Origin: a virus
IMG/VR virus record: IMGVR_UViG_3300032308_002578
Location: 1-64,000 of that record
Length of the DNA: 64,000 nucleotides
Reading direction: 5' to 3' (one strand)
Below are positions 3,274-52,035 of this stretch, piece by piece. The translations under genes were made by a program, and so were the position numbers. Each line of letters starts with the position of its first letter. Position 1 is the stretch's first letter. The notes beneath the pieces were generated by a model. That model made no database searches. It was not told the origin of the DNA and saw only the letters and a program-made list of their open reading frames with translations.

Positions 3274-4200
3274 ATGCCCACTCAGCAAGAAATCCAGTTG
3301 CTCAATGAGACGCTCTTTGAGCAACTCGATACCCCCGGCATGCAGAAGCAAGCCATTGATGCAGTTAACGACTTCACGCGCACCAAGATGCGTGAAGACG
3401 GGTTCTATCGGCGGATCATGCCGCCGCTCACCATCACCAATGACGAACTCGACCGTCAGGTCGATACCGACAAGCCGGTGAAGGTGGTCGACAAGGAGCC
3501 CGATTCCCCGGCGGCTGTGTCGCTTCCGTTTGCGACACTCCCGATCAACTTCTACATCCGTGGCCCGCGCTACCGCGTCATGTTTGACCGGATCGTGTCG
3601 CCCCGCGCTGTGAAGGACGTCGACGAACTCCGGACGTATGTCATCGACATCCGTCAGGTGCTCAGCGACAACATGATCAAGGACATGCTCGCTGAGGAAG
3701 ACGGCAAGTTCATCACCGCCTTCAACGCCGTCCTCCCGACCCCGGGCGTGGCGAATGTTGCTTCGGGCGCTGTTCAGTACGAAGAGATTCACGGCGGTAT
3801 CACCCGTGAAACGCTTGTTGATGCCCTGAAGGTCATGCCCCGTACGCCCTCGCACTTCGAGGTCGAGACTTGCCTCGTGAATAACATCACGATCAAGGAA
3901 CTCCTCAAGTTCGGTCGCGACGAGATGGGTGGTGACTTCTCGCAAGACATCATCAAGAACGGTTGGGCGGAGACGAACTTCCTCAACTGCCGCTGGATCG
4001 TCACGATCAAGCGCGATCTCGTACCTGACGACAGCCTGTTCATGTTCGCCTCGCCGAAGTTCATTGGCAAGAACTATGAACTGGAGCCCACCACGATGTA
4101 CATCCGTCGTGAGGCTTACATGCTGGAGTACTTTGCGTATCAAACGGCTGGCGGCTCGTTCGGTCACACGAACGGTCTCGCCCGCGTTGACTTCAAGTAA
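3274..4200 (+). CDS. Major capsid protein (HK97-fold candidate)
   Basis: 308 residues. The protein has an N-terminal helical segment, a mixed alpha/beta middle, and a C-terminal region typical of phage capsid proteins in which a fluoride-sized set of beta strands leads into an aromatic-rich tail (about 265-300). Length is in the normal range for HK97-fold capsid subunits. It is preceded by the extended SD, and it is the largest compact protein between the scaffold-like/decoration-like genes and the neck region. It would form the icosahedral shell around the packaged genome. I infer this mainly from module order and overall sequence character; no short diagnostic motif exists for the family. 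Confidence 0.7.
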   Translation: MPTQQEIQLLNETLFEQLDTPGMQKQAIDAVNDFTRTKMREDGFYRRIMPPLTITNDELDRQVDTDKPVKVVDKEPDSPAAVSLPFATLPINFYIRGPRYRVMFDRIVSPRAVKDVDELRTYVIDIRQVLSDNMIKDMLAEEDGKFITAFNAVLPTPGVANVASGAVQYEEIHGGITRETLVDALKVMPRTPSHFEVETCLVNNITIKELLKFGRDEMGGDFSQDIIKNGWAETNFLNCRWIVTIKRDLVPDDSLFMFASPKFIGKNYELEPTTMYIRREAYMLEYFAYQTAGGSFGHTNGLARVDFK

Positions 4201-4996: not shown

Positions 4997-5023
4997 TCGT
5001 TGTAATCTGATTCTTCTCTGTGA

Positions 5024-5058
5024 AAGGGCTGGCCGATTCTCGGCCAGCCCTTTCTATT
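5024..5058 (+). terminator. Rho-independent terminator after the capsid genes
   Basis: A perfect 11-bp stem (GGGCTGGCCGA / TCGGCCAGCCC) with loop TTC is followed by TTTCTATTT. It lies 28 bp after the stop codon of the preceding gene and separates the capsid transcript from the neck-like gene. Confidence 0.85.
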
Positions 5059-5094: not shown

Positions 5095-6105
5095 ATGGCA
5101 GTCATCGCTACACCGACCTCGCATCCGCTGGTTGTTTGCGACCCGAACATTTCCGCCGCCCCGACGAGTCTGACGACTGTGCCGTGCGCTGGCCAGAACG
5201 TCATTAGCGCCCCGGTATCGGCAACCAACAGTCAACCCATTCTGACGCGCATGCGAGCCGTACAGGTCACGCAGGGCCAGTGCGCGACGATTGAGTGGCA
5301 GTTGCACGACAAGGATGGCAACCCCGTCGACCTGACGCCGTGCGGGCTGGCCATCGAAAGCAGTGAGCCGCTGTTTAAAGTGACACTGCGACTGAAAGAA
5401 CAACTGGCGCTGGGAAATGCCCGACCCGTCCAATCGGTAGACGCTGTCATGGTGGACGCTGGTGCCGGGAAAGTTGCCGCCACGCTGACGCAAAACATGG
5501 TGAATACGCCGGGCGTGTACTACGGCGAAATGGCGCTGATTAGTATTCCGGCTGAGGCTGCGGATACGCCGTGCGTCGTCTTCTCGAATACTTTCTACAT
5601 CATCATTAATCGCAGCACGTTTGGTCCGGGCGGTGATATGGGCGGCCCACCGAGCGTCGCCGAGATCCGCCTGCATCTGCGCGATTCCAGCCCGGCCGAG
5701 AGTTATCTGCTGGAACACCTGATGTTCGATGACGCCGAGATCGCCTTGGCCATTGCTCGCCCCGTCATGTACTGGAACGAGATCCCGCCCCCGCTCGATA
5801 TGGTCTACAACACGCAAAACTTCCCTTTTCGCTACCACTGGTTGGAAGGTATTTGCGCCAATCTGTTCATGATGGTGGCCGAGCAGTTCCGCCGCAACCA
5901 ACTGAGTTATTCAGCGGCTGGCGTTAACATCGACGATCAGAATAAAGAAGGTAGTTACGAGCGCGCCGGCCAAGCACGGTGGCAGGCTTACCGGGAATGG
6001 GTGCGGGCAACCAAGGCCAGCATCAATCTCGAAAGTTGCTACGGCGAAGTGACCAGTGCCTACAAGTACAGCGCTTACACAGACGCCCTGCGCATCCGAT
6101 ATTAG
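5095..6105 (+). CDS. Virion protein, probable neck/head-tail joining protein
   Basis: 336 residues; ATG 5095 follows CCGGAGG. The N-terminal half (about 1-180) is beta-rich and resembles an Ig-like or upper-baseplate-type domain. The C-terminal half (about 185-336) is helical and begins with a segment on the pattern LRDSSPAESYLLEHLMFDD, followed by aromatic helices. That two-part design and its place between capsid and tail genes fit a connector or neck component linking head and tail. The family is not recognised, so the specific role is inference. Confidence 0.5.
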   Translation: MAVIATPTSHPLVVCDPNISAAPTSLTTVPCAGQNVISAPVSATNSQPILTRMRAVQVTQGQCATIEWQLHDKDGNPVDLTPCGLAIESSEPLFKVTLRLKEQLALGNARPVQSVDAVMVDAGAGKVAATLTQNMVNTPGVYYGEMALISIPAEAADTPCVVFSNTFYIIINRSTFGPGGDMGGPPSVAEIRLHLRDSSPAESYLLEHLMFDDAEIALAIARPVMYWNEIPPPLDMVYNTQNFPFRYHWLEGICANLFMMVAEQFRRNQLSYSAAGVNIDDQNKEGSYERAGQARWQAYREWVRATKASINLESCYGEVTSAYKYSAYTDALRIRY

Positions 6106-6361
6106 CGCGTTCTGGAAAATGGAAAATTTGCCGCAAGTCCTGTGTTTGCAGTGACTTACGTAGTTCGCGAATTGCGAACGCCGGTGTTACAAGATTGCCG
6201 CTCAAAAAATTAAGAGCATTGGTTCTGTAACGCTCGGCGCTAAATATTGCCAAAAATTACGGCATATTCTCTGACGCGCCTTCTGCTATGGGCACGTTAA
6301 CCAATACACGCTGGGCACGCATGTACTGGTTTACGCTTCCGTGCCGTAGAGGTAACGCCTG
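6106..6361 (+). promoter_or_regulatory. 256-bp leader with dyads and a promoter-like motif
   Basis: No gene is seen here. The stretch holds an imperfect hairpin (AAGTC/GACTT with inner CTG/CAG, about 6135-6157) and a 17-bp dyad GTTCGC-GAATT-GCGAAC at 6163-6179 that could be a repressor operator. It also holds a 29-bp motif at 6240-6268 that recurs at 48015. It separates the head module from the MoxR-VWA unit, so that unit probably has its own transcription control. Confidence 0.45.
6240..6268 (+). promoter_or_regulatory. Candidate phage promoter motif, copy 1
   Basis: The motif runs CTAAAT, 14 nt, CGGCATATT. The copy at 48015-48043 has the same two end blocks at exactly the same spacing and matches at 21 of 29 positions. 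Both copies lie 60-95 bp upstream of a gene that starts a new unit. It has no proper sigma70 -35/-10 pair, so it may be read by a modified polymerase. Confidence 0.4.
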
Positions 6362-6820
6362 ATGAAGGCTGTTAACGCTCAAACGCAGTTCCTGTTGGAG
6401 AAACTGCGCACCAGACAGAAGGAGGCGATCGCGGCAGGGAAACCTTTGCCGTCGCCGTATGCGGCCCTCGACAAGGGTCGCCGTATGCTAGGCCGCGAGT
6501 GGGACGAGCCCACCAAGCGGATGGCTATTGAGGCCCTCGCGATGTGGGTCGTGAGTCTCGTGGCTGGCATGCTGACTGAGACGATGAACGAGATCAGCGC
6601 AGTCGGGCGGTTCGCTGCCAACAGCGAGTCCGAAGAGGGCAAGGCGGCGGCGCACGAACTCGTCACCTCGATGGGGTTTATCGAGTCGGTGATGAAGCTG
6701 TTTGCGGAGTCAATCGACTTCGAATACGTCGCTGAGCAACTCTTCGCCGACGGCCAGAAGGCGGGCGAGAGCGAGACAACGTCCGCCTTCGAAAAGAAGT
6801 GCAAGCCTAGCGCGAATTAA
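6362..6820 (+). CDS. Unrecognised helical protein at the head of the MoxR-VWA unit
   Basis: 152 residues; ATG 6362 is preceded by AGAGG at 6350. It is helical with no Cys clusters. A hydrophobic stretch around residues 55-75 (ALAMWVVSLVAGML) could be a buried amphipathic or membrane-touching helix, but it is too short and polar-flanked to call a transmembrane segment. It lies 55 bp before the AAA+ ATPase gene and probably shares its transcript. It could be an accessory factor or a substrate of the ATPase system; nothing confirms either. Confidence 0.6.
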   Translation: MKAVNAQTQFLLEKLRTRQKEAIAAGKPLPSPYAALDKGRRMLGREWDEPTKRMAIEALAMWVVSLVAGMLTETMNEISAVGRFAANSESEEGKAAAHELVTSMGFIESVMKLFAESIDFEYVAEQLFADGQKAGESETTSAFEKKCKPSAN

Positions 6821-6875
6821 CTTTCTCGCGGGCGACCGGTGTTCTGGGTTTCATTACTTCTAGGAAGGAGTCGAT

Positions 6876-7700
6876 ATGACCGAGACGCTGCTGCCGGGTT
6901 ACCATGCCCGACGCGGTGAGACCCTCGCGGCCAAGTTCTTGGCTATGGTTACGAATACCGTGCGCGCCGTGCTGCTCGTCGGCGCGCCCGGTACTGGCAA
7001 AACGTTCTTCGCGGAATGTTTTGCCAAAGGCCGGCAGGCAGAGCACTTCTTTGTGCCCTGCCATCCATGGTTGACCAACGAGGAGGTCAATCAGGGCATC
7101 GACATCGGCAAGGTCGCTGTCGGTGTCTCACACGCCGACGAGGCGTACCTCGACGGGCAGGTGCTGAAGGCGATCAAAGCCACCAAGCACCGCGAAGTTG
7201 TCCTCGTGCTGGACGAGGTCGAGAAGGCTGGAACGCGGTTCTACGCCCTGATTCTCGATTTCTTGCAGCACGGTCGGGTGCCAGACGCCCGACACCATTT
7301 CCATCAGGCAAATCTCCATAACCTCTTTATCGTGCTCACCGCGAACGAAGAGGGCGAGATCCCTGAAGCCGTGAAGCGGCGCTGCTTCAGAGTGGAAATG
7401 GAATTCCTGCCGGAGAACGTCGAGACCGACGTGCTTCGGAAGTCGACGGGCGCCCCGGGCGGCGCGTGTCGGCTTGCGGTTCGTATGGCTAACGCCATTC
7501 GGACTCGCGGGGAGTCCAAGCCCAGCCTGCAGGAGTTGCGTGAACTCCTGCGGACACGCGATCTGGTGGAGTCTGCCGACGAGGCGGACGCCCTGATCGA
7601 CGGGTTCCTTGTAAAGGACCCGAAGGACCGCGAGGCGATCGTCCGCGTGACGGCGCGTCCCGGCGCCGTTCTCTTCGGTGAGTTCAAGAAGAGCGGCTGA
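6876..7700 (+). CDS. MoxR-type AAA+ ATPase
   Basis: 274 residues; ATG 6876 follows AGGAAGGAG. Walker A (GAPGTGKT) is at about residues 36-43, Walker B (VVLVLDEVE) near 108-116, a sensor-1 Asn (LTAN) near 152, and an arginine-finger-like KRRCF near 166. A helical lid domain follows. This layout fits MoxR/CobS-type AAA+ proteins, which use ATP hydrolysis to remodel target proteins together with a VWA-domain partner. The next gene encodes exactly such a partner. The target in this phage is unknown; roles in virion assembly or in remodelling a host complex are both possible. Confidence 0.8.
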   Translation: MTETLLPGYHARRGETLAAKFLAMVTNTVRAVLLVGAPGTGKTFFAECFAKGRQAEHFFVPCHPWLTNEEVNQGIDIGKVAVGVSHADEAYLDGQVLKAIKATKHREVVLVLDEVEKAGTRFYALILDFLQHGRVPDARHHFHQANLHNLFIVLTANEEGEIPEAVKRRCFRVEMEFLPENVETDVLRKSTGAPGGACRLAVRMANAIRTRGESKPSLQELRELLRTRDLVESADEADALIDGFLVKDPKDREAIVRVTARPGAVLFGEFKKSG

Positions 7701-7710
7701 TGTTGTTTAT

Positions 7711-7744
7711 GGGGGCACGACCTTGTGGCGGAGGTCGTGCCCCC
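7711..7744 (+). terminator. Hairpin between the ATPase and VWA genes
   Basis: A perfect 13-bp stem (GGGGGCACGACCT / AGGTCGTGCCCCC) with loop TGTGGCGG, followed by TATTCCTTTCC. The T-tract is weak, so it may act as a partial terminator or a processing hairpin that sets the ratio of ATPase to VWA partner. Confidence 0.6.
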
Positions 7745-7772
7745 TATTCCTTTCCGCCAGCAAGGAGTGAAC

Positions 7773-9200
7773 ATGGCCGTAACCTTACGGCAATTGCAGC
7801 GGTGGCTGCACGCGTCACGGCAGAACAGCCGCGACGCGTTCGGCTACGAAGACGCCACCGAAGTTGGCCAGTTCGCCGGCTGGCTGCGGGGTGACAAAGT
7901 CGCGTCAGCGATGGTGCGTAACGGCACCATCGTTACAACGTGCACGTGTTCGCGGTGTATCGACAGCGCACCGCTTGTCGACGCGCGGGTTGGTAACCTC
8001 GTCGATTCATTGGCGAAAAAACACGGCGCAAACACCACGCTGGAGGCCCTCATGCGTCAGTCTCCGCCTGAAGGGTTTGAAAACCCGGACGGCGAGAGCA
8101 ATGATGATGAGGACGAGGGCGAGGACGAAAGCGACGGTCAGTCCGGACAGGGCGATGGCGAAGACGCTGATAACGAGTCCGACAACGAAAATGAGTCAAA
8201 TGATGGGTCGGAGTCTGAGAGCCAGAGCCAGCCGCAGCCGGGCCAAGCGAAAGGGCAGGAATCCCCGCAGCAGGCCAAAAAGCGGCAAGAGCAGGCAGCG
8301 CTGCAGGAAACCAAACAGAAGTTGCAGGACCTTCAACAGCAGATGAAGGACCGGCCGCATTCTTCTGTCGTACGGCAGCAAATCAAACGGACCAAGCGGG
8401 CGCTCAAAGAAGCGCGCCGCGCGGCGTCGTTTGGACGGGGTGACGGCCCGTCGCTCGAAGCCCGTAAGCAGATTGCCGGTGCCCACGGCAGGCTGCAAAA
8501 AGTTTCGCCCGCACTCCGGGCGCAAATGGCGGCCCTGATTAACCTGCTGGTTGGTCAGGGCAAAGCGGCCGGCGGCCAGATGGGGCCAATCCCCGTTCTG
8601 AGCCCGAGGAAGTTGGTTACGCGGATGCTTGTCCAGCGTCCGCTCGCCAACGCCCTCAAAGAAGACGTCGTGACTGGCCGCCCAGTCACGTTATTCTTGC
8701 CGGACGTTTCGCCGTCCTGTGAACGCCAAGCACAGGCGGCCTGCGACGTAGCCAACGCCGCAGGGTATTCCGGTGTGGCCGGTTCTGACGTACTGGTCTT
8801 CCCGCACAGCAACGGCTTCATCGACGAGACCGATGACGCCTACGTGCCGTGGTTTAACGGGAAAGTCCACACGACAGATCGGGCCGCCATAACCCGCCTC
8901 TTTAATGAGGTGGTAACCGGAAAGGGCAAGTGGCGTGTAAGGGCCGTCGTGATTATCGGCGATCACGACGGCGTGGACCTCTACCGACAACTCGCGGCAC
9001 TCCCGCGAATTGCTCGGATGATCTGGCTCCACAACGAGCAGAGGGATTACTCCAAACGCACGTTGTCAATGGCCGAAGGCGCCGACCGCAGGCTTGACGG
9101 CTGGCTCCCGGAAAGTTTGCAGAAGGTCTCGATGGTGTATGGGTGCGTAACCCAACCCCATATGGTGCAGGGTCTGAAAATGGCTCTGCAGGATCAATAG
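7773..9200 (+). CDS. VWA-domain protein, partner of the MoxR-type ATPase
   Basis: 475 residues. ATG 7773 was chosen because AAGGAG lies 6 nt upstream; the possible upstream GTG at 7725 falls inside the hairpin. Order of parts: a short N-terminal domain with a CTCSRC segment (about 50-60), a long acidic Ser/Asp/Glu region (about 105-165), a Gln/Lys-rich coiled coil (about 165-225), and a C-terminal alpha/beta domain. DVSPS at 311-315 in that domain fits the DxSxS metal-binding motif of VWA domains. The acidic linker followed by a VWA domain is the CobT-like design. Together with the preceding ATPase it should form a chaperone- or chelatase-type complex; the substrate cannot be read. Confidence 0.7.
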   Translation: MAVTLRQLQRWLHASRQNSRDAFGYEDATEVGQFAGWLRGDKVASAMVRNGTIVTTCTCSRCIDSAPLVDARVGNLVDSLAKKHGANTTLEALMRQSPPEGFENPDGESNDDEDEGEDESDGQSGQGDGEDADNESDNENESNDGSESESQSQPQPGQAKGQESPQQAKKRQEQAALQETKQKLQDLQQQMKDRPHSSVVRQQIKRTKRALKEARRAASFGRGDGPSLEARKQIAGAHGRLQKVSPALRAQMAALINLLVGQGKAAGGQMGPIPVLSPRKLVTRMLVQRPLANALKEDVVTGRPVTLFLPDVSPSCERQAQAACDVANAAGYSGVAGSDVLVFPHSNGFIDETDDAYVPWFNGKVHTTDRAAITRLFNEVVTGKGKWRVRAVVIIGDHDGVDLYRQLAALPRIARMIWLHNEQRDYSKRTLSMAEGADRRLDGWLPESLQKVSMVYGCVTQPHMVQGLKMALQDQ

Positions 9201-9526
9201 CCCGAATGTGCAAACGGCACGCAGAAAGGTGGTTTACGATGCCATTTCCTTAACTAGGGTCTTTATACCCTACGCGACCGTGGCTCCGACGGCCGCGTAG
9301 GGAGTTGGCAAACGGGCGGTGTTGATTCGGAGTAAAAGCCTTGTCACGTAAGGCTGGTGGACAAAAGTTTTACCCTTGTTGGGTGAGACAGCGTGACGGG
9401 AGACTGGCAAATAAGCCCTAGATTTAAACTTGACTGCATTTGGGACGTCGCTTGCGAAACGCCAAATACAGTGGGAGTCGAACCAATTTTGCCCCGTGCT
9501 GCTCGTTACCTGAACAAAAGGATCAG
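9201..9526 (+). other. Structured intergenic region, possible non-coding RNA
   Basis: No convincing gene in about 325 bp. It is dense in inverted repeats: TAGGGT-6 nt-ACCCTA (9255-9272); CCCTACGCG/CGCGTAGGG (9268-9302) with an inner CCGT/ACGG; GCCTT-7 nt-AAGGC (about 9338-9354); CTGCATTTGG/CCAAATACAG (about 9434-9471) with an inner TCGC/GCGA; and ACCTGAAC/GTTCAGGT (9508-9538). The first two share CCCTA and exclude each other. This density suggests a folded leader or a stand-alone RNA. It matches no RNA class I know. Confidence 0.45.
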
Positions 9527-9538
9527 ATGAGTTCAGGT
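9508..9538 (+). promoter_or_regulatory. Hairpin holding an SD and start codon in its loop
   Basis: A perfect 8-bp stem (ACCTGAAC / GTTCAGGT) encloses a 15-nt loop with AAAGGA and ATG 9527. The arrangement could present or restrict the initiation site of the small gene that follows. Confidence 0.5.
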
Positions 9539-9721
9539 TTAACACCAGCATGGACCGTGCCGCGCGCACATATAGTCAAGTGGCAGGAACTGATCTCCGA
9601 ACCACGTGCTTTCTCGTTGTGCCCCCGCAAGGGTGTTACCGTCACGACCGGTGAACAACGAGCCCAGAGTATGCGAGCAATCGCTATTACTGGGGCAGAG
9701 GGGGGCGACGGCGCGTCATAG
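9527..9721 (+). CDS. Possible small gene, 64 residues
   Basis: ATG 9527 follows AAAGGA by 6 nt. The product starts MSSGLTPAW and ends in a Gly/Asp/Ala run, with no recognised domain. Its stop codon lies in the loop of the strong terminator at 9698-9748, an arrangement seen in short translated leaders and small phage genes. Codon choice is not strongly phage-like, so it may be only part of a structured RNA. Confidence 0.35.
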   Translation: MSSGLTPAWTVPRAHIVKWQELISEPRAFSLCPRKGVTVTTGEQRAQSMRAIAITGAEGGDGAS

Positions 9722-9748
9722 TACGCCGCCGTCCCCCTCTTTTTTTTA
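9698..9748 (+). terminator. Strong rho-independent terminator before the tail module
   Basis: A long GC-rich stem (GAGGGGGGCGACGGCG pairing with CGCCGCCGTCCCCCTC, with a few mismatches or G-U pairs) is followed by eight T. It ends the MoxR-VWA/structured-RNA unit. Confidence 0.9.
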
Positions 9749-9787
9749 GCTATCAGCGATCGGGTAGAATAATAATAACGCGGGTTT

Positions 9788-9817
9788 TTGACGTTGCGTT
9801 CGGTTTCGCAGTATAAA
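9788..9817 (+). promoter_or_regulatory. Sigma70-like promoter of the tail module
   Basis: TTGACG (9788-9793), an 18-bp spacer, and TATAAA (9812-9817), 26 bp before ATG 9844 and just after the strong terminator. This is the best consensus-type promoter in the window. Confidence 0.65.
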
Positions 9818-9843
9818 ATTACGTCAAGCCACACGGAACTTCT

Positions 9844-11202
9844 ATGCCGCAAGACCGCATTTATCCGTTCCGCCGGGTTTCCGTCGACCACATGGTTCGC
9901 GGAGTAACGCGCGTCTGGTGGCAACTGGAGTCGCAATTTCGCGAGTCCGGGCCGTACGTCTTTCAACTGCAGTATGGCTACACGCCTAGCAATAAGTCTA
10001 CGGATTGGAAAAACGTCGGCGACCCGGTCACCAACGGGTATTTTGCGCTCGACCCCGGCTGGCGCGAGGGCGGCACAGAACTGCTTACCCATTACCGGGT
10101 GACGTTGACGACGCCCCAAGAGATTTACGTTTCTCAGCCAGCTAACTGCTTTGGCGAATTAACGGAGCGCGATTGGCTACTGGCCCGAGAGATTGTTCGA
10201 AAAGAGCAACTTCGGCACCGGCTCGTGTCTGTTCCCGGTTTCTTATTAAAGCAGTACCGGTATGGCAAACCGTGCAAACGCTGTCGCGATGAATTGACGC
10301 AAGAAATCACAGATAACAATTGCATTTTATGTAACGGCACAGGGTTCGAGGTCGGCTATCACCCGGCTATGCCTCTGCAGTGTTGGGACCTGTCGCCGGA
10401 AATGATAGAAGAACACGTCGACGCTGAGCTAAAAGGTTCGACACGAGAAAACGCGTATATTAAAGCCCGCGTAATCGGTTTCCCGGCGCTGAATAAAAAA
10501 GACATCTGGGTTAATGGTTCAACAGATGAGCGTTGGACAGTCGAGGTGGTGCAGGTCGTGGCAGCGGTGCGCAACGTGCCGCTGGTTTGCGAAGTGCGCC
10601 TCGGATTAGTGCCGTTTAACAACAGCATTTACGCCCTTGAAATTGGCGGAGAACCGCCGAACCGAGATCCGCGACCGCAGGTGGGGTTTGAGGGTTGCGG
10701 CGATATCGTTATCGATTCAAACTACACCGGTGATGACGCGCTGGCGTATGTTGACGCAACGGGCGACCCCATTGAAGGCGCGAGCGTATACGTTTTTAAA
10801 TTAACGGATATTGATGCAGCCAGCCCGGCGTTGCCAGACCGCGCAATAGCTGTCGCACAGACGATAACTGTGGCAAACGGTCGCTGGGCAGTACCCTTAA
10901 ACCTGTTTGCCGGTGATTACGGCGTGCTGTACGAGAAGTTGGGCGAATACGGCCCCGACTTGCAGATTATTACCGTACAGCCGGCTGCCGCGGCCCCGGG
11001 CTATATCTGGCGGATGCAGGCCCCTCTGCGCGCAGAAGCCGGTGACGGCTTTGACGGAATCGGCACGGAAACCGGCGCGCCGCTGTCAGTCGACGACAGG
11101 CAGCGCCCGGCAGCCCCCTTAAGAAGCACCGCGCGGCCGCCAGCACGCCGGGCATCGAACCGCAACACGCAAAACAACGACAACGATTTTTGGGCGGTGT
11201 AA
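9844..11202 (+). CDS. Tail/neck structural protein with a zinc-ribbon insert
   Basis: 452 residues. Residues 1-140 look beta-rich (Trp- and Tyr-rich strands with a GYTPSNKSTDW-type loop). Cys144/Cys147 and Cys160/Cys163 form a CxxC-x12-CxxC zinc ribbon. A second mixed domain spans about 165-280, a carboxypeptidase-like or Ig-like beta domain about 290-385 (GDDALAYVDATGDPIEGASV pattern), and the last 70 residues are Pro/Arg-rich and disordered. It opens the tail operon behind a sigma70-like promoter, upstream of terminator-like and sheath genes. A neck or head-tail joining role fits the position; the family is not recognised. Confidence 0.6.
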   Translation: MPQDRIYPFRRVSVDHMVRGVTRVWWQLESQFRESGPYVFQLQYGYTPSNKSTDWKNVGDPVTNGYFALDPGWREGGTELLTHYRVTLTTPQEIYVSQPANCFGELTERDWLLAREIVRKEQLRHRLVSVPGFLLKQYRYGKPCKRCRDELTQEITDNNCILCNGTGFEVGYHPAMPLQCWDLSPEMIEEHVDAELKGSTRENAYIKARVIGFPALNKKDIWVNGSTDERWTVEVVQVVAAVRNVPLVCEVRLGLVPFNNSIYALEIGGEPPNRDPRPQVGFEGCGDIVIDSNYTGDDALAYVDATGDPIEGASVYVFKLTDIDAASPALPDRAIAVAQTITVANGRWAVPLNLFAGDYGVLYEKLGEYGPDLQIITVQPAAAAPGYIWRMQAPLRAEAGDGFDGIGTETGAPLSVDDRQRPAAPLRSTARPPARRASNRNTQNNDNDFWAV

Positions 11203-11203
11203 C

Positions 11204-11356
11204 GTGACAAAACTCGATAAAGAAATGCAGCCAGCGGTTAAAATTAAAGACAAGCGCCAGCAACTGTTTCCAGTAATAGTTGTAAGTTCAGTTATCGACA
11301 AAAAGGACCCGCTCCGTGAGCACCTGCGACGACTCCCAAAATCCGCCGGAAATTGA
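11204..11356 (+). CDS. Possible small coupled gene, 50 residues
   Basis: GTG 11204 lies one base after the stop codon of the preceding gene, which allows reinitiation. The product is basic (MTKLDKEMQ start, many Lys/Arg) with a short hydrophobic stretch (LFPVIVVSSVI). It overlaps the next gene by 41 bp. It fills an otherwise empty 113-bp gap, which supports it, but there is no SD of its own. Confidence 0.4.
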   Translation: MTKLDKEMQPAVKIKDKRQQLFPVIVVSSVIDKKDPLREHLRRLPKSAGN

Positions 11357-12029
11357 AGCCCAGTTTCCGCCCGAGAGCGCTCCTGAAGTCCGGGTCGACC
11401 GGGTCAGTGCGCTATGTTCATACGGTATGCGCCCGCACGTCATGACGGGCCTGCTGCGGCAACTATTAGTAGGCCATTTCTCTGACCCCGAAAACATTGA
11501 CGACGCCCGAGTGCGGCGGATGGTCGAAGAGTTGGGCGGCTGGAAACCTGCCGACAACGGTTTAAACCAGACAGGTGTTTTGGTAGAAAGTATCACCCGC
11601 TGGAACCCGACTAATAACGACAAAAGACCCGGAATTTTGATTAAAAGAAATTCGTGGTCGTGGTTAAGAAAAGGTATTGGTGACAAATCAGGCGCAGATA
11701 CTTATACTGGATCTACTTCGTACACCGGGTTTTGGGAAGGCAGCCACACACTGTACTGCCTTGCCCAGAACGGCGGCGAAACCGAATTTTTGGCCACGGA
11801 AGTGGTCAAGTTTTTAGTCACATTTTCTCCGCTCATTGTTGACCAAATGGGCCTAATGCGCTTTTTTGTCAGCGAGGTTGGCGGAGTAGGAGAAGTTCAA
11901 GAGGTCGTGCAGGGTTATGCCGTACCTGTGACCGTGTCGTATGTTGCCGAGGAAGCTTGGTCGCTCCAGCCGTACGTGCCGCGTTTAAAGCGGATTGTCT
12001 TTAAGGCATCGGATTTACTGTCATATTAA
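11316..12029 (+). CDS. Probable tail terminator/completion protein
   Basis: 237 residues with a GTG start at 11316 behind AAAAGGA. The N-terminal 100 residues are helical, and the rest is a beta-rich domain with a FWEGSHTLYC segment and an alternating hydrophobic pattern. In contractile-tailed phages a protein of this size that caps tube and sheath is usually encoded just before the sheath gene, as here. I base the call on that position and on the mixed alpha/beta character. A head-tail adaptor is the alternative. Confidence 0.45.
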   Translation: MSTCDDSQNPPEIEAQFPPESAPEVRVDRVSALCSYGMRPHVMTGLLRQLLVGHFSDPENIDDARVRRMVEELGGWKPADNGLNQTGVLVESITRWNPTNNDKRPGILIKRNSWSWLRKGIGDKSGADTYTGSTSYTGFWEGSHTLYCLAQNGGETEFLATEVVKFLVTFSPLIVDQMGLMRFFVSEVGGVGEVQEVVQGYAVPVTVSYVAEEAWSLQPYVPRLKRIVFKASDLLSY

Positions 12030-12144: not shown

Positions 12145-14982
12145 ATGTCTAGTTACGTAAAACCACAAGTTCTCGTTTTCCAAGAGTTTACGATTGTTCC
12201 GACGGAGATTACGGAACCGCTGCGCGCCCACATCGCCGGTCCGCACGCCGTTCTCCATCGTTACAGCAACGTCACGGAGAAGAGCGACTGCCTGCTGGGT
12301 GATTACGACCGCCTGTCGGACACTTGCTATGCGTGGCCCCAGCGGACCGCCGGCTCGCTCGTCGACCTTGAGTACACCAAACTTTATATCGACAACGCGC
12401 TGCTCCTTTATTACGAGCACAACCTGACCGACATCGACACGGTTATTTCCCCGGTTGCAGGGCGTCAGAACTGGATTCAGTCGGACAACCTGTCGTTCAA
12501 GTCCAACACATCGGCTTACCCGCGCAGCGGCGCCTTCCACGACCGCGACGTCAAGGTGGGCGACCGTGTGTATCTCCGTTCGGTGAGCGAGGACAACGAG
12601 TGCGTCGAAACCGAACTGTGGACCGAAGTCGCTGGTTTTGCCAGTTCTATGGTTGACTCGCTGATTCAGCCGGCCACGGCTGATGTTGCCAACACCGGCA
12701 ATACCAATGCCGGCGCAAGCGTGACCAAGATTGCCGGCGCTGCTAACTGCATCGTGGCGGCTGTCGGCGGCACGTACAACGGTCTGGCTTCGGGCTATGT
12801 AAACGAAGAGTACACCATCGAAGTCGTGAAGAGTTCTGTCTCGGGTTGCAACGCTGCTCGCCTCCGCGTGCGTAGCGCCAGCGGCACCGACGATGTCGCT
12901 GAAGTCACCCCGGCCGCCATGGAAAGTGCGACAGCTATCGGCACGCGCGGCGTGACGGTGACGTTCGACGTCGTCCCGAACGAGAACTGCGAAGACGCTG
13001 CAACTGCGGCGGGTGTTGCGGCCGATCAGTTTGTGGTCGGCCAGAAGTGGCGTGTTGTTGTTGCGCAGCAGTTCATTGCTGTTACGGCGACCTCGTCTGC
13101 TGCTGGCGAGTACAGCACGGATGATGATGATAACATCGTTGGCGAGTATGCCGGCGAGAAGAATGACGTGTACGTCATCGAGTGCACAAAGGGCGGCCTC
13201 TGGGCGGCCCTGCCGGAAGTTACGGTTCGTACGGTTAAGGGTCTCGATTTCTCGGGTCCGACCGCGGTGACGAACACTGGCGTCAACGTGCCGGTTGGCA
13301 CAAACGGCGTGCAGGTGCAGTTCACAACCGGCGCCGGTCTGCGTAAAGGCGACAAGTGGTACATCACCGTGGTATCCAGCAAGGCTGGCCCGGTGCGCCA
13401 ACTTATCCTGCGCGACGACCTCCCGACCGACATGCTGTCGGCCGAAACGCTCGACCTGAAACTGTTCATCAAGGACGACATTCAGGTGTCGAAGAACCGG
13501 ACTGGTTTTGCTCCGCTGACCAACTACTACCTTGAAGCCACGCAGGTCTGCGTGCAGGAAGGCATTGTCGCCTACCACCCCGAGTGGACTGGCGGCGGCG
13601 TTGAACTGCCGCTGGAAGTGCGCGCTGGTCAACTGTACGTCGAGTACCGCGAGTGGCTGTCCGATCTCGCCGACGAGGTGAACTCGATCAGCGACGTGGC
13701 CGACCTTGATCAGATTGCGGGTCAACTCGATCCGGACAACCCGCTGAAGTGGGGCGTTTACAAGGCGCTGTCGAATTCGAACGGCACTGTGGTGAAGTAC
13801 ACCGCCGTGCTCGACCCGAAGAACCTCGACAGTTGGGTGCAGGTGCTTGAGCGACTCAAGGGTCGCGACGACCTGTACAACCTTGTTCCGATGACCTTCG
13901 ACATTCGCGTTCACAACCTGTGGGCTGCGCACATCGGCGCGGAGTCGAACGAGTACGCGAATAACTGGAAGGCCGGTTTCGTGGCGCTCAAGTCGGTGCC
14001 GCAAGTGCTGGTGGCTGGTGAGGGTGCGGCGATCGGTGGCGTTGCCGGTAACGTCGTGACCAGCCCCGTGCTGGCGACGGTTGGCGACGACCCGAATGCG
14101 ACCAACACGCAGTACACCAAACTGACGGTTACGTCTGGCAATGGTTACTTCATCACCAATGAAGTTCAGCCGGGCGACATCGTTCGTTACAACTTCGCCG
14201 TGGACGGTTTCGGTGACGAGCAGTACGAAGAGTACGTCGTCGACCGCGTGCTGTCCGAGTCGACCCTCCTGCTGTACTCGGGCACCAACACAGCGGTGAC
14301 CGTAGCCCAGCGGGTTGAGATCTACCACAATCGTAACCGCAACGAAATCGCTGACGGCATCGCCACACAGGCCGGCGCCCTCTCGAACCGTCGCGTTTGC
14401 GCCGTGTGGCCCGATCAGGTCGGCGAGGCTGGCACATTGCAGCCCGGTTATTACCTCGCTGCGGCTCTGGCTGGCCTTGTGAGCGGTGTGGTGCCGCACC
14501 AGCCGCTGACGAACGTCGAAGTGGCTGGTTTTGACGACTACAGCCGGTCCTACAAGTACTTCAATGAAACCCAACTGAACCGCATGGCGGAAGCCGGCGT
14601 GTGGATTGTCACGGAAGACCGTGACGGCACGCCTCACACCCGCCACGCGCTGACGACGGACAACCTCGACCTGAATCGTCGGGAAGAGATGATCCGCCGC
14701 AACGTGGACTCGATCTCGTATCTGTTCCTCCGTCGTCTGCGCCCGTACATCGGGCGGACGAACGCGTCGCAGAGCATGGTCGAGTTGCTGCGGACCAAGG
14801 TGGGTGACGTGATCCGTTTCCTGTCGACCAACGGCTATACACAAGAACTGGGCTCGCAGTTAATCAGCGGCGAGATCCGTGTCCTGCGTATTCACCCGCT
14901 GCTTAAGGACCGCATTGAAATCGTGCTTGACCTTGTTGTGCCGGCGCCGCTGAACAACATCGAACTGCACTTAGTTGTCTGA
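12145..14982 (+). CDS. Contractile tail sheath protein
   Basis: 945 residues. The C-terminal part (about 760-945) has the typical sheath ending: residues around 855-885 with RRLRPYIGRTN, then helices (FLSTNGYTQ) and a final beta-rich tail ending IELHLVV, the region that in known sheaths interlocks subunits and contacts the tube. Residues about 180-415 are an insertion made of two related beta domains, each ending in a (R)GVxVxF ... GxKW pattern. This makes the protein longer than T4 gp18 (659 residues). The tube gene follows directly. It drives DNA injection by contraction. Confidence 0.85.
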   Translation: MSSYVKPQVLVFQEFTIVPTEITEPLRAHIAGPHAVLHRYSNVTEKSDCLLGDYDRLSDTCYAWPQRTAGSLVDLEYTKLYIDNALLLYYEHNLTDIDTVISPVAGRQNWIQSDNLSFKSNTSAYPRSGAFHDRDVKVGDRVYLRSVSEDNECVETELWTEVAGFASSMVDSLIQPATADVANTGNTNAGASVTKIAGAANCIVAAVGGTYNGLASGYVNEEYTIEVVKSSVSGCNAARLRVRSASGTDDVAEVTPAAMESATAIGTRGVTVTFDVVPNENCEDAATAAGVAADQFVVGQKWRVVVAQQFIAVTATSSAAGEYSTDDDDNIVGEYAGEKNDVYVIECTKGGLWAALPEVTVRTVKGLDFSGPTAVTNTGVNVPVGTNGVQVQFTTGAGLRKGDKWYITVVSSKAGPVRQLILRDDLPTDMLSAETLDLKLFIKDDIQVSKNRTGFAPLTNYYLEATQVCVQEGIVAYHPEWTGGGVELPLEVRAGQLYVEYREWLSDLADEVNSISDVADLDQIAGQLDPDNPLKWGVYKALSNSNGTVVKYTAVLDPKNLDSWVQVLERLKGRDDLYNLVPMTFDIRVHNLWAAHIGAESNEYANNWKAGFVALKSVPQVLVAGEGAAIGGVAGNVVTSPVLATVGDDPNATNTQYTKLTVTSGNGYFITNEVQPGDIVRYNFAVDGFGDEQYEEYVVDRVLSESTLLLYSGTNTAVTVAQRVEIYHNRNRNEIADGIATQAGALSNRRVCAVWPDQVGEAGTLQPGYYLAAALAGLVSGVVPHQPLTNVEVAGFDDYSRSYKYFNETQLNRMAEAGVWIVTEDRDGTPHTRHALTTDNLDLNRREEMIRRNVDSISYLFLRRLRPYIGRTNASQSMVELLRTKVGDVIRFLSTNGYTQELGSQLISGEIRVLRIHPLLKDRIEIVLDLVVPAPLNNIELHLVV

Positions 14983-25469: not shown

Positions 25470-27135
25470 AAATTTTGTCCGGTCTGAATTTGAACTAACG
25501 GCAGAATTCACCGACGCAAAGTCCGGTGCGAGGAAAGCACTGTTTAAAGACATCCTTTCGATTTCGGCTACGTTTGCGCTGAATTCAATTCCGGTTGCGT
25601 CCCTTGTGGTCGCGTGCGGGCGGAACGTGTCAGACAAGTCGCAGCCCGCCACCATTGACGCCGCGCTAAAAGTGTTAAAGCCGCGCGACAAGGTCAAAGT
25701 TACGCTGACAATCAGGACAAACGACGGCGAGACAAGTTTAATGCCCGAGGGTCGCGGCGTAATTTTCGACGGGTATTACGCCGGTGCGGGCTATCAGCGG
25801 TCAAATAATTCGGTTAGTTATGCGCTGCATTTGATTCATTGGTTGGACGATTTAAACTGCTCTTCCATGATCAACGGCAACTGGCACCCCGGCGTGCCGC
25901 ACGATTTGGCGCAAGCCGCCAACTCTGACGTGGCGCTCATGCGCGGCGGTGCGGACTGGACAGGCAAGAATAAAGGTCTGACAAATCCCGTGCCGATTGT
26001 GGACGCGACAGGAAGCATTATTAATAAATCCAACATGCAAGATGATTTATGGGAAAAAGTCCTCAAGCCCATGTTCAAAGAAATCGCGTCGTTCAGCCAC
26101 CCCCGCGAGCAAAACTACGCGCGAGACAATAACCCGCTTACAAACGGCAACAACGCGGCGGCATTACTGGCGCTGGAGCGCATGCCTGGCACGGCGCCTT
26201 TTCCGGGAAAACTGCCGCTCTTTATGGGCGGCGTAAACGCCAAGGCTATCGCTGACGGCGCAAACAAAGGGATTAGCGGTATCGCCAAAAACGGAATGGC
26301 CTACTCGTCATTCTGGAGCAAACTCGTCGGCGAATATGCGCCTGAATTTTTGTTTGCCGTGTCGCCGTGCCCTGAGTTTGCAAACGTTGTTCCGTTCTTT
26401 GGCGGTCTTCGTGGCTACTGGAAAGAGATCGACGGCCGGGAATATACCTACGCGAATTTTGATTCCAACCTCGCGAGCCTTATTGAGTCGATCGAGATTC
26501 GGTATTCTCAAAAGGCCACGTCTAATTGGGCGCTTGGCGGCAGAGCCCCCGGGCTTTCATATTTCAGGCCGTGGGGTCGGTTTCCAAAAAAGAATAATGA
26601 TCTCCGCGGCCAAATTATCGTAAAAGATCCGCCGGGTTGGCTGGCAAACGCTATTTCGCAGGGCGCATTCTCGCCACTGACGACCGGCTTTGGTCGACGC
26701 CTTGGCGACACTGCGTGCCCCGGCAAGGGCCCCGAAGATACGCCGGCGGGTGTGCTCCGCCCGGCGGACGCTGAAAAAGATGTAGAGAAATCGAACATCG
26801 TCAACATATTTTGCGAGCACTGGTACAAAACTGAAGTGCTCTCTAAGCGGTACGGTGAAATGTCTGGAAAGTTACGTTTTGACATTGCACCCGGCAGCAT
26901 TGTCAAAATTAAAGAGCCAGATCTAAGCGCCGGTAGCGAACTCACGACATACGCCGCTGTCACGCATGTGTCATTTTTGATTAACACAGAGCAACACACA
27001 GCCGGCACGTCGTTTACACTATTAAATCTGCGGTCGGAACTTGAGAACAACGACGATTTATTTACAAGCGCTGCGCCGCCCCTGTACCCGACCGCAAAGT
27101 GGGTTGGCGGGCCGCTGGTAAGAGGGTTATCCTGA
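25462..27135 (+). CDS. Probable baseplate hub protein (gp27/gpD-like)
   Basis: 557 residues; ATG 25462 chosen over the adjacent ATG 25459 because AAAGG lies 6 nt upstream. The N-terminal 130 residues are beta-rich, starting FVRSEFELTAEF and including a DKVKVTLTIRTNDGE-type strand pair as in the tube-like domains of hub proteins. The C-terminal part (about 430-557) returns to beta strands with a RFDIAPGSIVKIKEP segment, a pattern typical of late-control-D/gp27-type hubs that hold the spike. Position between tube-like and wedge genes agrees. Direct homology is not demonstrated. Confidence 0.5.
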   Translation: MAENFVRSEFELTAEFTDAKSGARKALFKDILSISATFALNSIPVASLVVACGRNVSDKSQPATIDAALKVLKPRDKVKVTLTIRTNDGETSLMPEGRGVIFDGYYAGAGYQRSNNSVSYALHLIHWLDDLNCSSMINGNWHPGVPHDLAQAANSDVALMRGGADWTGKNKGLTNPVPIVDATGSIINKSNMQDDLWEKVLKPMFKEIASFSHPREQNYARDNNPLTNGNNAAALLALERMPGTAPFPGKLPLFMGGVNAKAIADGANKGISGIAKNGMAYSSFWSKLVGEYAPEFLFAVSPCPEFANVVPFFGGLRGYWKEIDGREYTYANFDSNLASLIESIEIRYSQKATSNWALGGRAPGLSYFRPWGRFPKKNNDLRGQIIVKDPPGWLANAISQGAFSPLTTGFGRRLGDTACPGKGPEDTPAGVLRPADAEKDVEKSNIVNIFCEHWYKTEVLSKRYGEMSGKLRFDIAPGSIVKIKEPDLSAGSELTTYAAVTHVSFLINTEQHTAGTSFTLLNLRSELENNDDLFTSAAPPLYPTAKWVGGPLVRGLS

Positions 27136-27947
27136 TGCCAACACAGCCGCAACCAAAAGGTATGCCGTCTATCCTCGGTGACGTAGATGCGCCGTTCTCT
27201 GCCCCAACCCGGATTACCGGCGTTGCGGATGACTTCACGGACATTCACACCCAGTGGCTGAAAAACAAGACGCCAGACACGAACACGCAACTGCTGAAAC
27301 GCGTGCAGCCCGTGATCGACACGGCTGTCAGCAGTTACGGCGGCGCATCTTCCAGTCCTGTGTTTAAGTCGCGCGCGCGACTAATGGCGCTAAAAGCCAT
27401 GGAGACGTACGACCCCAAGCGCGGTAACGTCAGAACACACCTCCTGTCGCAACTGCAGAGTCTCCGCCGCTTGTCCGCGCAGGAGCAGAACATCATTTCG
27501 ATTCCGGAGCAGGTCGGGTTGGACTACCAGCGGCTCCACGCCGCCGAGAACGAACTGCGCGACAGTCTTAGCCGCGACCCTAGTGACGAGGAACTGGCTG
27601 ACGCCACGGGCCTGTCGATCAAGCGGCTGCGAAAAGTGCGCGCGTTTAACCAGCCGATTGCGTCCGGTACCACAGTGCGCGAAACAGCCGAAGAAAACTA
27701 CGACGGCGACATCGCTAGTTCTATCCCAAACCAGAACCGGTCAGCGGATGCGTGGCTGGATTTTGTATATGGCGATTTGACACCCACGGATCGGCTCGTT
27801 ATGGACATGACGCTCGGCAGAAACGGCCGGAGGCGCGCCAGCACGCAAGACATCGCGGCTCGTTTAAATATCACGCCGGGCGCTGTCAGCCAGCGCGCAG
27901 CCAAAATTCAGGCCATGATCGACAAAAGGTACGAGCACAATTTTTAA
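27135..27947 (+). CDS. Sigma70-family-like protein inside the baseplate operon
   Basis: 270 residues; ATG 27135 overlaps the preceding stop (TGATG), so it is translationally coupled to the hub. Residues about 80-112 resemble part of sigma region 2 (ALKAMETYDPKRGNVRTHL). Residues about 133-170 match the region 3 pattern (ELRDSLSRDPSDEELADATG). Residues about 215-265 look like region 4 with a helix-turn-helix (STQDIAARLNITPGAVSQR). The acidic region 1 and most of region 2 needed for -10 melting are missing or divergent. It could direct RNA polymerase to late phage promoters, or be a virion protein derived from a sigma factor. Confidence 0.65.
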   Translation: MPTQPQPKGMPSILGDVDAPFSAPTRITGVADDFTDIHTQWLKNKTPDTNTQLLKRVQPVIDTAVSSYGGASSSPVFKSRARLMALKAMETYDPKRGNVRTHLLSQLQSLRRLSAQEQNIISIPEQVGLDYQRLHAAENELRDSLSRDPSDEELADATGLSIKRLRKVRAFNQPIASGTTVRETAEENYDGDIASSIPNQNRSADAWLDFVYGDLTPTDRLVMDMTLGRNGRRRASTQDIAARLNITPGAVSQRAAKIQAMIDKRYEHNF

Positions 27948-28952: not shown

Positions 28953-30602
28953 ATGGCTATTGAAATCGCAAGTTTGAGCGAACTGGATACTGCAAAAGTT
29001 GAGCAAATGGTTGCGAAACTTGCGCAGTATATGCAGGAGCGGCATCCGGAAGTGGAGTTGACCCGCGGCGTGTTTCATGACCTCGTGCTGTACTTCAACG
29101 GTGTTCTGAATGCGGCTATCCAAGAGAACATCGACCGGGTGCGGCAAAGCCAAAGCCTGTACGCCATCACGCAGAATCCGGCCCTTGCGGAGCCGGCTAT
29201 CGTCGATCAGGTACTGTCGAACTACAACCTGACCCGAGACGCAGGCACACCAGCCACCGGCGTAGTAACGCTGTTGCTTAATTTGCCGCTTACCACTCGA
29301 CTGACGACAGACGCGCTGTTCACGGCAAACGACGTGCAGTTCGCGCCTACGCAGAACTTTACCGCACTGCCGCCCGGGTCGACGCCAACCAACGACGGCG
29401 ACCGCGTCATGATCGACGTAGGCGACGGTACGTATGCGATCAACATCACGGCGCAGGCACTGACAGTCGGCGCAGCGGGTAATATTCGTCGGGGCGTCAC
29501 CGTGACACCGAACTTCGTGACCAACAACACGCTGGCGGCATTTGCGGCGTCGGACTTCATCGACGGACGCGACCCGCTGACCAACGCCGAGTACATCCAG
29601 AAGTTGCCCGAGGCGCTAGCGGCCAAGACGGTCGGCGGCCGGGCCAGTTACACCGCTACGATCAAAGCGCAACCGGCGTTTCAGAACATCAAACACCTGT
29701 CGATTCTCGGCTGCGGCGACGCTGAACAACAACGCGATCAACACAGCCTGTTTCCGATCTCCGGCGGCGGGAAGATTGACGTCTACGCGCAGACGAACAG
29801 TTATGCTCAAGAAACAGAGCACTTGCTGCGCGCGACATTCATCGGCACGTCGGCAAACGGGACGATTTGGCAGGTTACGCTGGACAAGAATACGTCGGCT
29901 GGGTTTTATGAGGTGCGCCGAATAGCCGCCGCAAATGACACGACAAGTTCTGGCTATCAGATCCTCACGGACGTCCGCGGCGTAGACACGGCTGACGCGC
30001 TGTTCGTGCCCGATATGCGCTATCTGGCCGAGACAGCCTACACGCGCTACCAGACCGCCGTGATCCAGTTCGAGGACCCGGACGTACCCACAGCCGGACT
30101 TGTGCCGAACGTTAGCAAGGCGTACTACCGCGTGCGTACGGTCGGCCTGCCGCTGGTGGCCGAACTGAACGACTTCCTGACCACGCGCGACCGGCGACCA
30201 CGCGGCACCGACATTCTGGTCAAAGCCGCGGTGCCGTGTTTCACCAAGATTGCGTTCCAGATCAGGACCGAGACTAACGACACGATTACAGACGCCACCA
30301 TCGCTGAAATCAAACAAGCGGTGGTAGACGCCGCGGCTAAGGTTGGCTTCTCTGGCCAACTCCACGCCTCAATCGTCGACAGCGCTGCGCACAAGTACCT
30401 ATCTGGCCGGCAGGTGGTCAGCAAAATCGACATGTTTGGGCGGATTCGTCGGCCAGACGGCTCTGCGGCGTATCTGCGCGACCCGGCGGTGCTGACGATC
30501 CCGAACGACCCGGCACGCTTGGTGACTGGCAGGACGACTGTATTTCTTGTAGGGGTCGACGACGTTTCAGTATCAGTCGCCGCGGCTGGCTTTCTGAATT
30601 GA
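28953..30602 (+). CDS. Baseplate J-like wedge protein
   Basis: 549 residues; AGGGTG precedes ATG 28953. The N-terminal 90 residues are helical. The core (about 90-330) has the J-protein pattern: a TLLLNLP-type strand region, then ALTVGAAGNIRRG (about 170-182), then the FIDGRDPLTNAEYIQKLPEAL segment (about 200-220). The C-terminus has the KAAVPCFTKIAFQI and DATIAEIKQAVVDAA elements seen in J/gp6-like proteins. Such proteins form the wedge ring of the baseplate that triggers sheath contraction. Confidence 0.75.
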   Translation: MAIEIASLSELDTAKVEQMVAKLAQYMQERHPEVELTRGVFHDLVLYFNGVLNAAIQENIDRVRQSQSLYAITQNPALAEPAIVDQVLSNYNLTRDAGTPATGVVTLLLNLPLTTRLTTDALFTANDVQFAPTQNFTALPPGSTPTNDGDRVMIDVGDGTYAINITAQALTVGAAGNIRRGVTVTPNFVTNNTLAAFAASDFIDGRDPLTNAEYIQKLPEALAAKTVGGRASYTATIKAQPAFQNIKHLSILGCGDAEQQRDQHSLFPISGGGKIDVYAQTNSYAQETEHLLRATFIGTSANGTIWQVTLDKNTSAGFYEVRRIAAANDTTSSGYQILTDVRGVDTADALFVPDMRYLAETAYTRYQTAVIQFEDPDVPTAGLVPNVSKAYYRVRTVGLPLVAELNDFLTTRDRRPRGTDILVKAAVPCFTKIAFQIRTETNDTITDATIAEIKQAVVDAAAKVGFSGQLHASIVDSAAHKYLSGRQVVSKIDMFGRIRRPDGSAAYLRDPAVLTIPNDPARLVTGRTTVFLVGVDDVSVSVAAAGFLN

Positions 30603-52009: not shown

Positions 52010-52035
52010 GCATCGTTGAGAGGCCCGGCGGGTTT
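51984..52035 (-). terminator. Terminator of the minus-strand gene at 52059
   Basis: Read on the minus strand: AAACCCGCCG, 22-nt loop, CGGCGGGTTT, then TTTCTTTTTTG. The stem is perfect over 10 bp. It overlaps the 3' end of the convergent plus-strand gene. Confidence 0.75.

Follow-up and report, generated by a model that had tools for sequence, protein, structure and literature searches.

We analyzed a 64,000-nt window, positions 1 to 64,000 of the 87,750-nt IMG/VR virus record IMGVR_UViG_3300032308_002578, and focused on a group of plus-strand genes and RNA elements centered on a MoxR-type AAA+ ATPase gene and an adjoining gene for a von Willebrand factor A (VWA)-like protein. Three open reading frames (ORFs) were called at this locus, which comprises the following features.

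6106-9843, plus strand: the whole optional insert, between resident genes 5095-6105 and 9844-11202
6164-6178, plus strand: leader inverted repeat TTCGC-N5-GCGAA, in 7 of 9 distinct cassette loci
6362-6820, plus strand: ORF for a small protein of 152 aa with no family; homologs in 7 of 8 distinct relatives
6876-7700, plus strand: ORF for a predicted MoxR (NorQ/CbbQ-type) AAA+ ATPase of 274 aa; AAA_5, E 5.1e-13
7711-7744, plus strand: intergenic hairpin of 14 bp with a 6-nt loop; covariation in 7 loci, z -5.8
7753-7759, plus strand: strand able to pair with the hairpin loop, 2 nt ahead of the VWA Shine-Dalgarno sequence; possible pseudoknot
7773-9200, plus strand: ORF for a VWA-like protein of 475 aa, with DxSPSC at 8703-8720 and GDHD at 8958-8969
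9224-9697, plus strand: structured noncoding RNA with a covarying core; exact ends approximate
9239-9253, plus strand: mini-ORF ATG CCA TTT CCT TAA (MPFP), behind a Shine-Dalgarno sequence at the head of the structured RNA
9698-9747, plus strand: intrinsic terminator with a U8 tract; minimum free energy -33.1, z -3.9 for 9692-9752

Relatives were collected by searching IMG/VR with an ATPase alignment, which returned 21 loci (designated L): 12 in records of the same family, six distant ones (L024-L029), and three (L031-L033) that matched over 51 residues only and were dropped as spurious. Two groups of three family records had identical BLAST values, and eight distinct relatives were therefore counted.

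The ATPase and its VWA-like partner

By fold and motifs, the product of 6876-7700 is a predicted NorQ/CbbQ-type MoxR AAA+ protein. Walker A (GxPGTGKT), Walker B (DE), sensor 1 (TAN/TSN) and RR were conserved in all 14 aligned ATPases, the 13 others being 30-82% identical to that of the window. With the structure model (mean predicted local distance difference test [pLDDT] score 84.3), VIA-align returned NorQ/CbbQ proteins at all of ranks 1-10 (Z 16.8-19.7), ahead of ClpA (15.4), and Foldseek ranked NorQ first (TM 0.70); NorQ was also the best solved relative by sequence (E 2.6e-4). Two strands of the model that precede the sensor strand (134-136 and 142-144) fit a pre-sensor-1 hairpin, and residues 65-84 and 87-90 fall below pLDDT 50. 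A search of phage records gave seven weak partial matches at 23-31% identity, all in unannotated records. MadB is part of a defense system, and the MadB ATPase was the best NCBIfam match, at 37.8 bits versus a cutoff of 475.

In the protein encoded by 7773-9200, the DxSPSC motif was invariant in 13/13 aligned sequences, down to 18% identity. Invariant residues include D311, S313, P314, S315, C316, P344, N347 and G348, as well as D397, R415 and W418. The later aspartate, Asp397, is by sequence a candidate metal-site position; as for the threonine of a metal ion-dependent adhesion site (MIDAS), no column of residues 300-475 holds Thr in at least 10 of the 13 sequences. The structure model was poor overall (mean pLDDT 69.7), with an alternating strand-helix domain at residues 300-475. 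VIA-align placed a designed protein first (Z 8.1) and, below it, the MIDAS domains of Rea1 (7.5 and 7.3) and MDN1 (7.0) and Ro60 (6.7), with many integrin and VWA domains at Z 5.6-6.3 among the 50 matches and unrelated folds interspersed among the VWA domains. The first-ranked Foldseek match was a chain of the NorQD complex, subunit not stated (E 0.06, TM-score 0.16). Searches of solved structures by sequence gave no VWA match, those of viral models by Foldseek nothing at E up to 0.001, and those of phage records no match; a profile search of genome contigs with the VWA alignment confirmed none of 21 candidates. We regard the VWA fold as probable, not proven.

The preliminary description of this DNA had reported a MoxR-type AAA+ gene followed by a VWA gene with a DxSxS motif, an acidic linker and a coiled coil. 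Both genes are confirmed as real by the ORFs, the motifs and the profile match of the ATPase. The ATPase assignment is borne out by the AAA_5 match, the motifs in 14/14 sequences and the ten top fold ranks, and the second motif by D-x-S-P-S-C in 13/13; neither the Walker motifs nor the DxSxS motif of the MIDAS were lost in relatives. Profile searches for a VWA family gave a mixed answer, with no Pfam match above the cutoff for the window protein and a weak VWA_CoxE match in 2/13 members (best E 0.0084). The acidic linker is present in the window (36% D/E) but is not conserved in the close family, in which seven relatives have 4-26% D/E and are mostly Q/P rich; five distant relatives have a short stretch (27-31 residues) with 26-37% D/E. 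Two long helices are predicted at residues 165-193 and 198-219, where the coiled coil had been proposed.

The small protein has homologs at 22-47% identity, the weakest in L018 (E 2e-4); none was seen in L020. Pfam and NCBIfam gave nothing above the cutoff for it, and PHROGs and PADLOC no match. Its matches were all at chance level, such as that to ArdA (E 0.077, 14 bits versus a cutoff of 27).

RNA elements of the cassette

The proposal that the unit has its own leader held up: the inverted repeat occurs in 7/9 distinct cassette loci, and a conserved element, GGCATATT, in 9/9. The repeat was found in none of the 14 pair-less loci scanned (of 32; see below).

A hairpin of 14-15 bp with a 6-nt loop lies between the ATPase stop and the VWA start in seven of the nine distinct loci. 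The other two (L017 and L021) have very short junctions with no room for it. Over the seven loci, 99% of the cells pair and 7/14 pairs change on both sides; 0/500 shuffles scored as high in covariation, 21/500 reached the number of further pair types, and pairing fell to 56-64% when the alignment was slid by one column. The hairpin noticed earlier between the two genes is therefore real, far beyond chance. A consensus scan labels it terminator-like (one of 8 sites so labeled in the region, against 4.9 expected).

In all seven hairpin loci, the loop could form 6-7 bp with a strand that lies 7-9 nt behind the hairpin and ends 0-3 nt before the VWA Shine-Dalgarno sequence. The per-locus probability of such complementarity by chance, obtained by shuffling the tail, ranged from 0.001 to 0.105. 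In L020, the loop (AGCGGG) and its partner strand both differ from the others and still match each other, and the three changed loop-strand pairs all come from this one lineage. These features suggest a putative pseudoknot or switch controlling VWA translation, the pseudoknot being read from complementarity alone; a crossing loop of 7-9 nt over a 14- to 15-bp stem is tight, and two loop-strand bases of the window are also paired within the hairpin stem. A fusion of ATPase and VWA protein by stop codon readthrough was rejected as not conserved, as the frames are joined in the window and L018 but differ, by ORF coordinates, in L001, L002, L015, L016, L017 and L021.

In the window, 643 nt separate the end of the VWA gene from the next gene. 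Aligned over seven loci, this region contains a Shine-Dalgarno sequence with an ORF of 3-5 codons, conserved blocks and a terminator. The core of the RNA (A8, eight loci) has 22 pairs, 14 of them changed on both sides, with a covariation of 0.52 versus 0.25 in shuffles; 0/500 shuffles were as high, and slid versions gave 0.05-0.14. Covariation was weak outside the core (0.03 for the term of the 3' block A9, with 6/17 pairs changed on both sides; 0.08 for the whole-length alignment). Folding energies had z scores of -2.8 to -4.7 against 30 mononucleotide shuffles each. No reading frame at 9224-9697 is common to all loci, and the short BLAST matches of the region, most of which link L015 with L016, fall in many frames and on both strands; we read them as conserved RNA. 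No Rfam family reached its threshold for this RNA; at E up to 10, the interval 9150-9950 gave seven matches far below gathering scores, mostly of microRNA models on the terminator.

The short ORF behind the Shine-Dalgarno sequence was found in 8/8 loci, six by script (MPFP in four, MTWP and MHWPR) and two by eye (MFT in L001, MNFT in L034). It ends with Pro-stop in 5/8 loci. At the aligned place of the terminator, 7-8 T are present in 5/7 loci, the tract being interrupted in L021 and displaced in L015. Plus-strand terminator scans behind the VWA gene gave no terminator-like site and missed 9698-9747, which was revealed by folding. A terminator behind the unit had been predicted; a strong one is present, but about 500 nt further on, behind the structured RNA. 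Since the terminator stands between the RNA and the tail gene and no common frame exists, we rejected the idea that the RNA belongs to the tail gene or to a split gene.

An optional insertion in a phage family

The insert is bounded upstream by ORF 5095-6105 and downstream by 9844-11202, and 9844-11202 is followed by a gene with weak similarity to Neck1 (11316-12029; phrog_879, E 0.0046) and by one for a tail sheath (12145-14982; phrog_279, E 3.5e-7). The VWA gene directly follows the ATPase gene in 12/12 family records; the contigs of L002 and L020 end within it. In the six distant loci, on contigs of 18-44 kb, an ATPase with an N-terminal extension is followed by a VWA-like ORF, found by BLAST in five and by profile in L025 (E 5e-53). 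In L024, L025, L026 and L028, the pair comes after exonuclease/polymerase- and ligase-like genes (assigned by eye) and before genes on the opposite strand. A weak AAA_5 match in record G004 at 129577 (L065) was below the cutoff (E 4.3e-4).

We then used as a query, presupposing no pair, the protein encoded by 3274-4200, named capsid-like by position and conservation alone as it had no profile match. It returned 49 loci, 42 of which span the homolog of the 5095-9844 site. The pair was present in 10/42 (six distinct, L082-L084 being alike and likewise L091-L093) and absent, by BLAST and profile, from 32/42; among the 32, there are five pairs of rows whose upstream genes are identical. L096 and L099 carry the pair but end early, and L080, L106 and L109-L111, in which the site is not spanned, showed no pair. 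The pair-less sites hold 3-62 nt in 15/32, 139 nt in one and 519-1414 nt in 16/32, and most of these 16 longer sites contain other small ORFs, which points to a variable cargo site. The 5095-9844 site looks like a general cargo hotspot.

Other small ORFs were seen at the same site in pair-less L071, L072, L074, L078, L081, L086 and L087. In L102, a 218-aa ORF of the cargo site (from 14013) starts like the capsid-like protein (NEHLFDQLNTP) and is, by eye, possibly a duplicated fragment of it.

A model of the structured RNA matched 10/10 spanning contigs with the pair and 0/32 without it (E up to 1). Counted by record, it matched 9/15, which are all nine family records that extend past the VWA gene; the contig of L020, which ends inside this gene, gave no match. 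Thus, ATPase, VWA protein and RNA form one unit within the phage family. Fourteen of 14 long pair-less family records (153-205 kb; L106 and L111 among them do not span the site) contained no copy elsewhere of the VWA gene, the ATPase gene, the VWA gene of the second pair described below or the RNA. As controls, the VWA and ATPase queries found 6/6 pair-bearing records, two of them distant, and not the pair-less one, with the caveat that the VWA alignment includes most of the control sequences; the RNA query found 9/9 expected records.

The capsid-like protein is up to 98.7% identical to that of the window in phages without the cassette and 88-95% identical in those with it. On trees of the upstream and downstream genes (38 rows, 7 with the cassette; quick trees, with long branches flagged), the cassette required 2 label changes versus a shuffled mean of about 6.6. 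It is clustered, nearly in one clade, although the upstream tree places L082 separately; a single origin of the cassette is compatible with the downstream tree. As relatives without the pair reach 98.7% identity to the window in this protein, we take the pair to be accessory cargo and not an obligatory virion assembly factor; the latter view was dropped when the capsid-like query revealed such relatives. The earlier statement that the pair is inserted between head and tail modules turned out to be literally correct, since empty sites exist.

Elsewhere in the window, 28953-30602 encodes a baseplate J-like protein, and nine other ORFs gave no PHROGs match at E up to 0.01. A terminase large subunit gene (GpA_ATPase; 61280-63967, minus strand) has an apparent LAGLIDADG-bearing intein (LAGLIDADG_3, 1.8e-13; Intein_splicing, 4.2e-8, just below the cutoff). 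A possible phage sigma factor at 27099-27947 (plus strand) matched Sigma70 region 3 (1.3e-10) and, weakly, region 4. RNA family matches were obtained for abiF at 51996-52032 (minus strand, 45.8 bits), with a 403-aa ORF upstream on the same strand that weakly matches DUF6582, and for DUF3800-VIII at 47923-47997 (plus strand, 42.6 bits). Long hairpins lie at 59641-59678 (17 bp) and 5022-5054 (15 bp).

Known MoxR-VWA systems and possible function

Publications are cited here by PMC identifier. In NorQ/NorD and CbbQ/CbbO, as in the window, a VWA partner gene adjoins that of the ATPase, and the fold of the window ATPase is closest to NorQ/CbbQ. They differ in that the ATPase is only about 20% identical to NorQ/CbbQ in the aligned parts, that the window VWA protein has no profile match above the cutoff, and that the pair is phage cargo. 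In NorQD, the VWA protein inserts a finger into the pore of the hexamer, and motion powered by ATP is proposed to twist and stretch a linker of NorD (PMC13036017); the window protein shares the NorD order of N-terminal part, flexible linker and C-terminal VWA-like domain.

MoxR-VWA pairs in viruses have already been published, and a MoxR ATPase gene also occurs in a cyanophage. The Acidianus two-tailed virus (ATV) likewise encodes a MoxR ATPase, p618, a virion component that binds the VWA protein p892 and was assigned a role in tail development (PMC4124505); ATV is set apart, by description, as an archaeal spindle virus with p618 in the virion, whereas most spanning relatives here lack the pair. 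Large tailed phages with such pairs include those of jumbo group 2.2, for which a tail or assembly chaperone role was proposed (PMC7824862), and Bacillus phage 0305phi8-36 (orf66/orf63; PMC2147016). Compared by description, the vWA protein of group 2.2 is fused to a metallopeptidase, unlike that of the window, and the 0305phi8-36 pair is listed among nonstructural genes; the available parts of those two accounts tell of no linked RNA. With the MoxR-vWA ternary conflict systems of bacteria (PMC7159879), the cassette has in common the MoxR-vWA core and the accessory distribution, but no third effector of the kinds described there was recognized in the window. The gp24/gp25 pair of N4 is a possible parallel, for which no literature match was found.

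GOLLD and ROOL RNAs occur in phages. Like these large RNAs (PMC12286853), that of the cassette is structured and several hundred nucleotides long, but it has no Rfam match, and the sole tRNA of the window lies 47 kb away.

The preliminary description had cast the two genes in the CobS/CobT plan, which fits them weakly: none of 13 members matches a CobT profile, close relatives do not keep the acidic linker, and the virus has a separate pair of this kind. The same virus carries, outside the window, a second pair, at 68139-69638 and 69642-73061 (L063 5140-10062), for which the CobS/CobT label is by sequence the better fit: its 499-aa ATPase matches phrog_249 (6.6e-41) and AAA_5 (8.5e-24), and its 1139-aa partner matches CobT_C (3.1e-12) and VWA (7.9e-6) and has a DQSGSMS motif. 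Of 15 records searched, three contain the 1139-aa protein (G000 and two that look like it, G005 and G016); the cassette records of 198 kb and 205 kb gave no match to it. Neither pair is a close copy of the other, the ATPases being 25% identical over 223 columns and the VWA proteins matching at E 0.98 at best. Viral CobS/CobT pairs of haloarchaeal viruses and cyanophages have the same ATPase-VWA order, but the window VWA protein has DxSPS instead of DxSGS and no CobT_C match. That the window pair would act as a CobS/CobT-like metal chelatase helper boosting host cobalamin synthesis seems hardly credible to us. Tailed viruses often carry CobST pairs, which have been read as cobalamin boosters (PMC8651126), and the window ATPase weakly matches phrog_249 (3.9e-6). 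Against this, the CobT_C profile matched none of 13 VWA members of the window-type pair at E up to 1, the CobS/CobT-like pair of this virus is a separate one, and CobN was found in 0/9 virus records, although the host could supply it.

We consider the insert an optional cargo (moron) cassette of a family of uncultured myovirus-like phages of roughly 200 kb, composed of the small protein, the NorQ/CbbQ-type ATPase, the VWA-like protein and the structured RNA, whose target would most likely be a complex of the host or of a competitor, or another nonuniversal target. For this reading as a whole we estimate a probability of about 0.45. Its sequence anatomy, conservation, coinheritance within the family and empty sites are observed. 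The cargo role is suggested by dispensability and the variable site, and the choice of target by the fact that the cassette is dispensable for the virion architecture of the family. An anti-host or competition role of the pair is compatible with these findings. The ATPase would form a hexamer; the VWA protein would dock on it and use its N-terminal domain and MIDAS-like site to hold the target, and ATP hydrolysis might twist or pull the target, by analogy with the proposal for NorQD. The junction hairpin or pseudoknot by the VWA Shine-Dalgarno sequence may set the amount of VWA protein relative to the hexameric ATPase.

Several observations count against an optional cargo cassette with a nonuniversal target. 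The cassette is on the strand of the structural module and between its genes, and, being clustered in related phages, it could serve a lineage-specific structural part. In PADLOC, the ATPase gave only weak matches, in its AAA part (best 2.2e-6), and its partners had no match. The evidence for the VWA fold is a model with a mean pLDDT of 69.7 and MIDAS-type matches below Z 8. The RNA model matched 0/5 distant records with a related pair, although, being built from cassette phages, it could miss a diverged RNA.

The pair might instead be an accessory virion assembly chaperone that acts in the maturation of a tail or neck component specific to the cassette clade, as p618/p892 may do in ATV. It lies between homologs of 5095 and 9844 in 7/8 distinct relatives reaching that far, and the upstream gene order is kept in 8/8, six of them complete, as the contigs of L002 and L020 stop short of the tail gene; the ATV precedent (PMC4124505) and the same proposal for jumbo group 2.2 (PMC7824862) also speak for it. 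Phages with a 97-99% identical capsid-like protein and homologous sheath and tail genes nevertheless lack the pair, 14/14 records have no copy elsewhere, and in four of the six distant loci the genes upstream of the pair look, by eye, replicative. We therefore hold this alternative to be possible but rather unlikely, and the ATP-driven assembly suggested earlier can stand solely as an optional function. The earlier interpretation is supported in part, with the MoxR ATPase and its VWA-like partner borne out.

Ro60-type VWA proteins hold Y RNAs. By analogy, the cassette could be a phage-borne ribonucleoprotein-remodeling machine, gained and lost as one unit, in which the VWA protein would hold the RNA as guide, scaffold or client; we regard this as improbable. 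It is a little less probable still that the proteins are passengers and that the RNA and terminator are the selected element, for instance as a regulator of tail gene transcription. The strong RNA covariation and the terminator before the tail gene fit such a role, but the ATPase appears to be under selection, because close relatives share it at 66-82% identity and retain every motif, and 32/42 phages get by with no detected RNA at the tail gene.

Phage MoxR-VWA pairs have been described before and were interpreted as serving tail assembly, cobalamin synthesis or conflict. Within the literature covered, to which access was partly limited, we found no phage MoxR-VWA pair with a linked structured RNA, with empty sites or with a covarying junction. 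The linked RNA is a candidate third component, reported there for none of the known pairs. In this family, naturally empty and occupied sites occur in phages with very similar capsid-like proteins, which makes the function of the pair directly testable.

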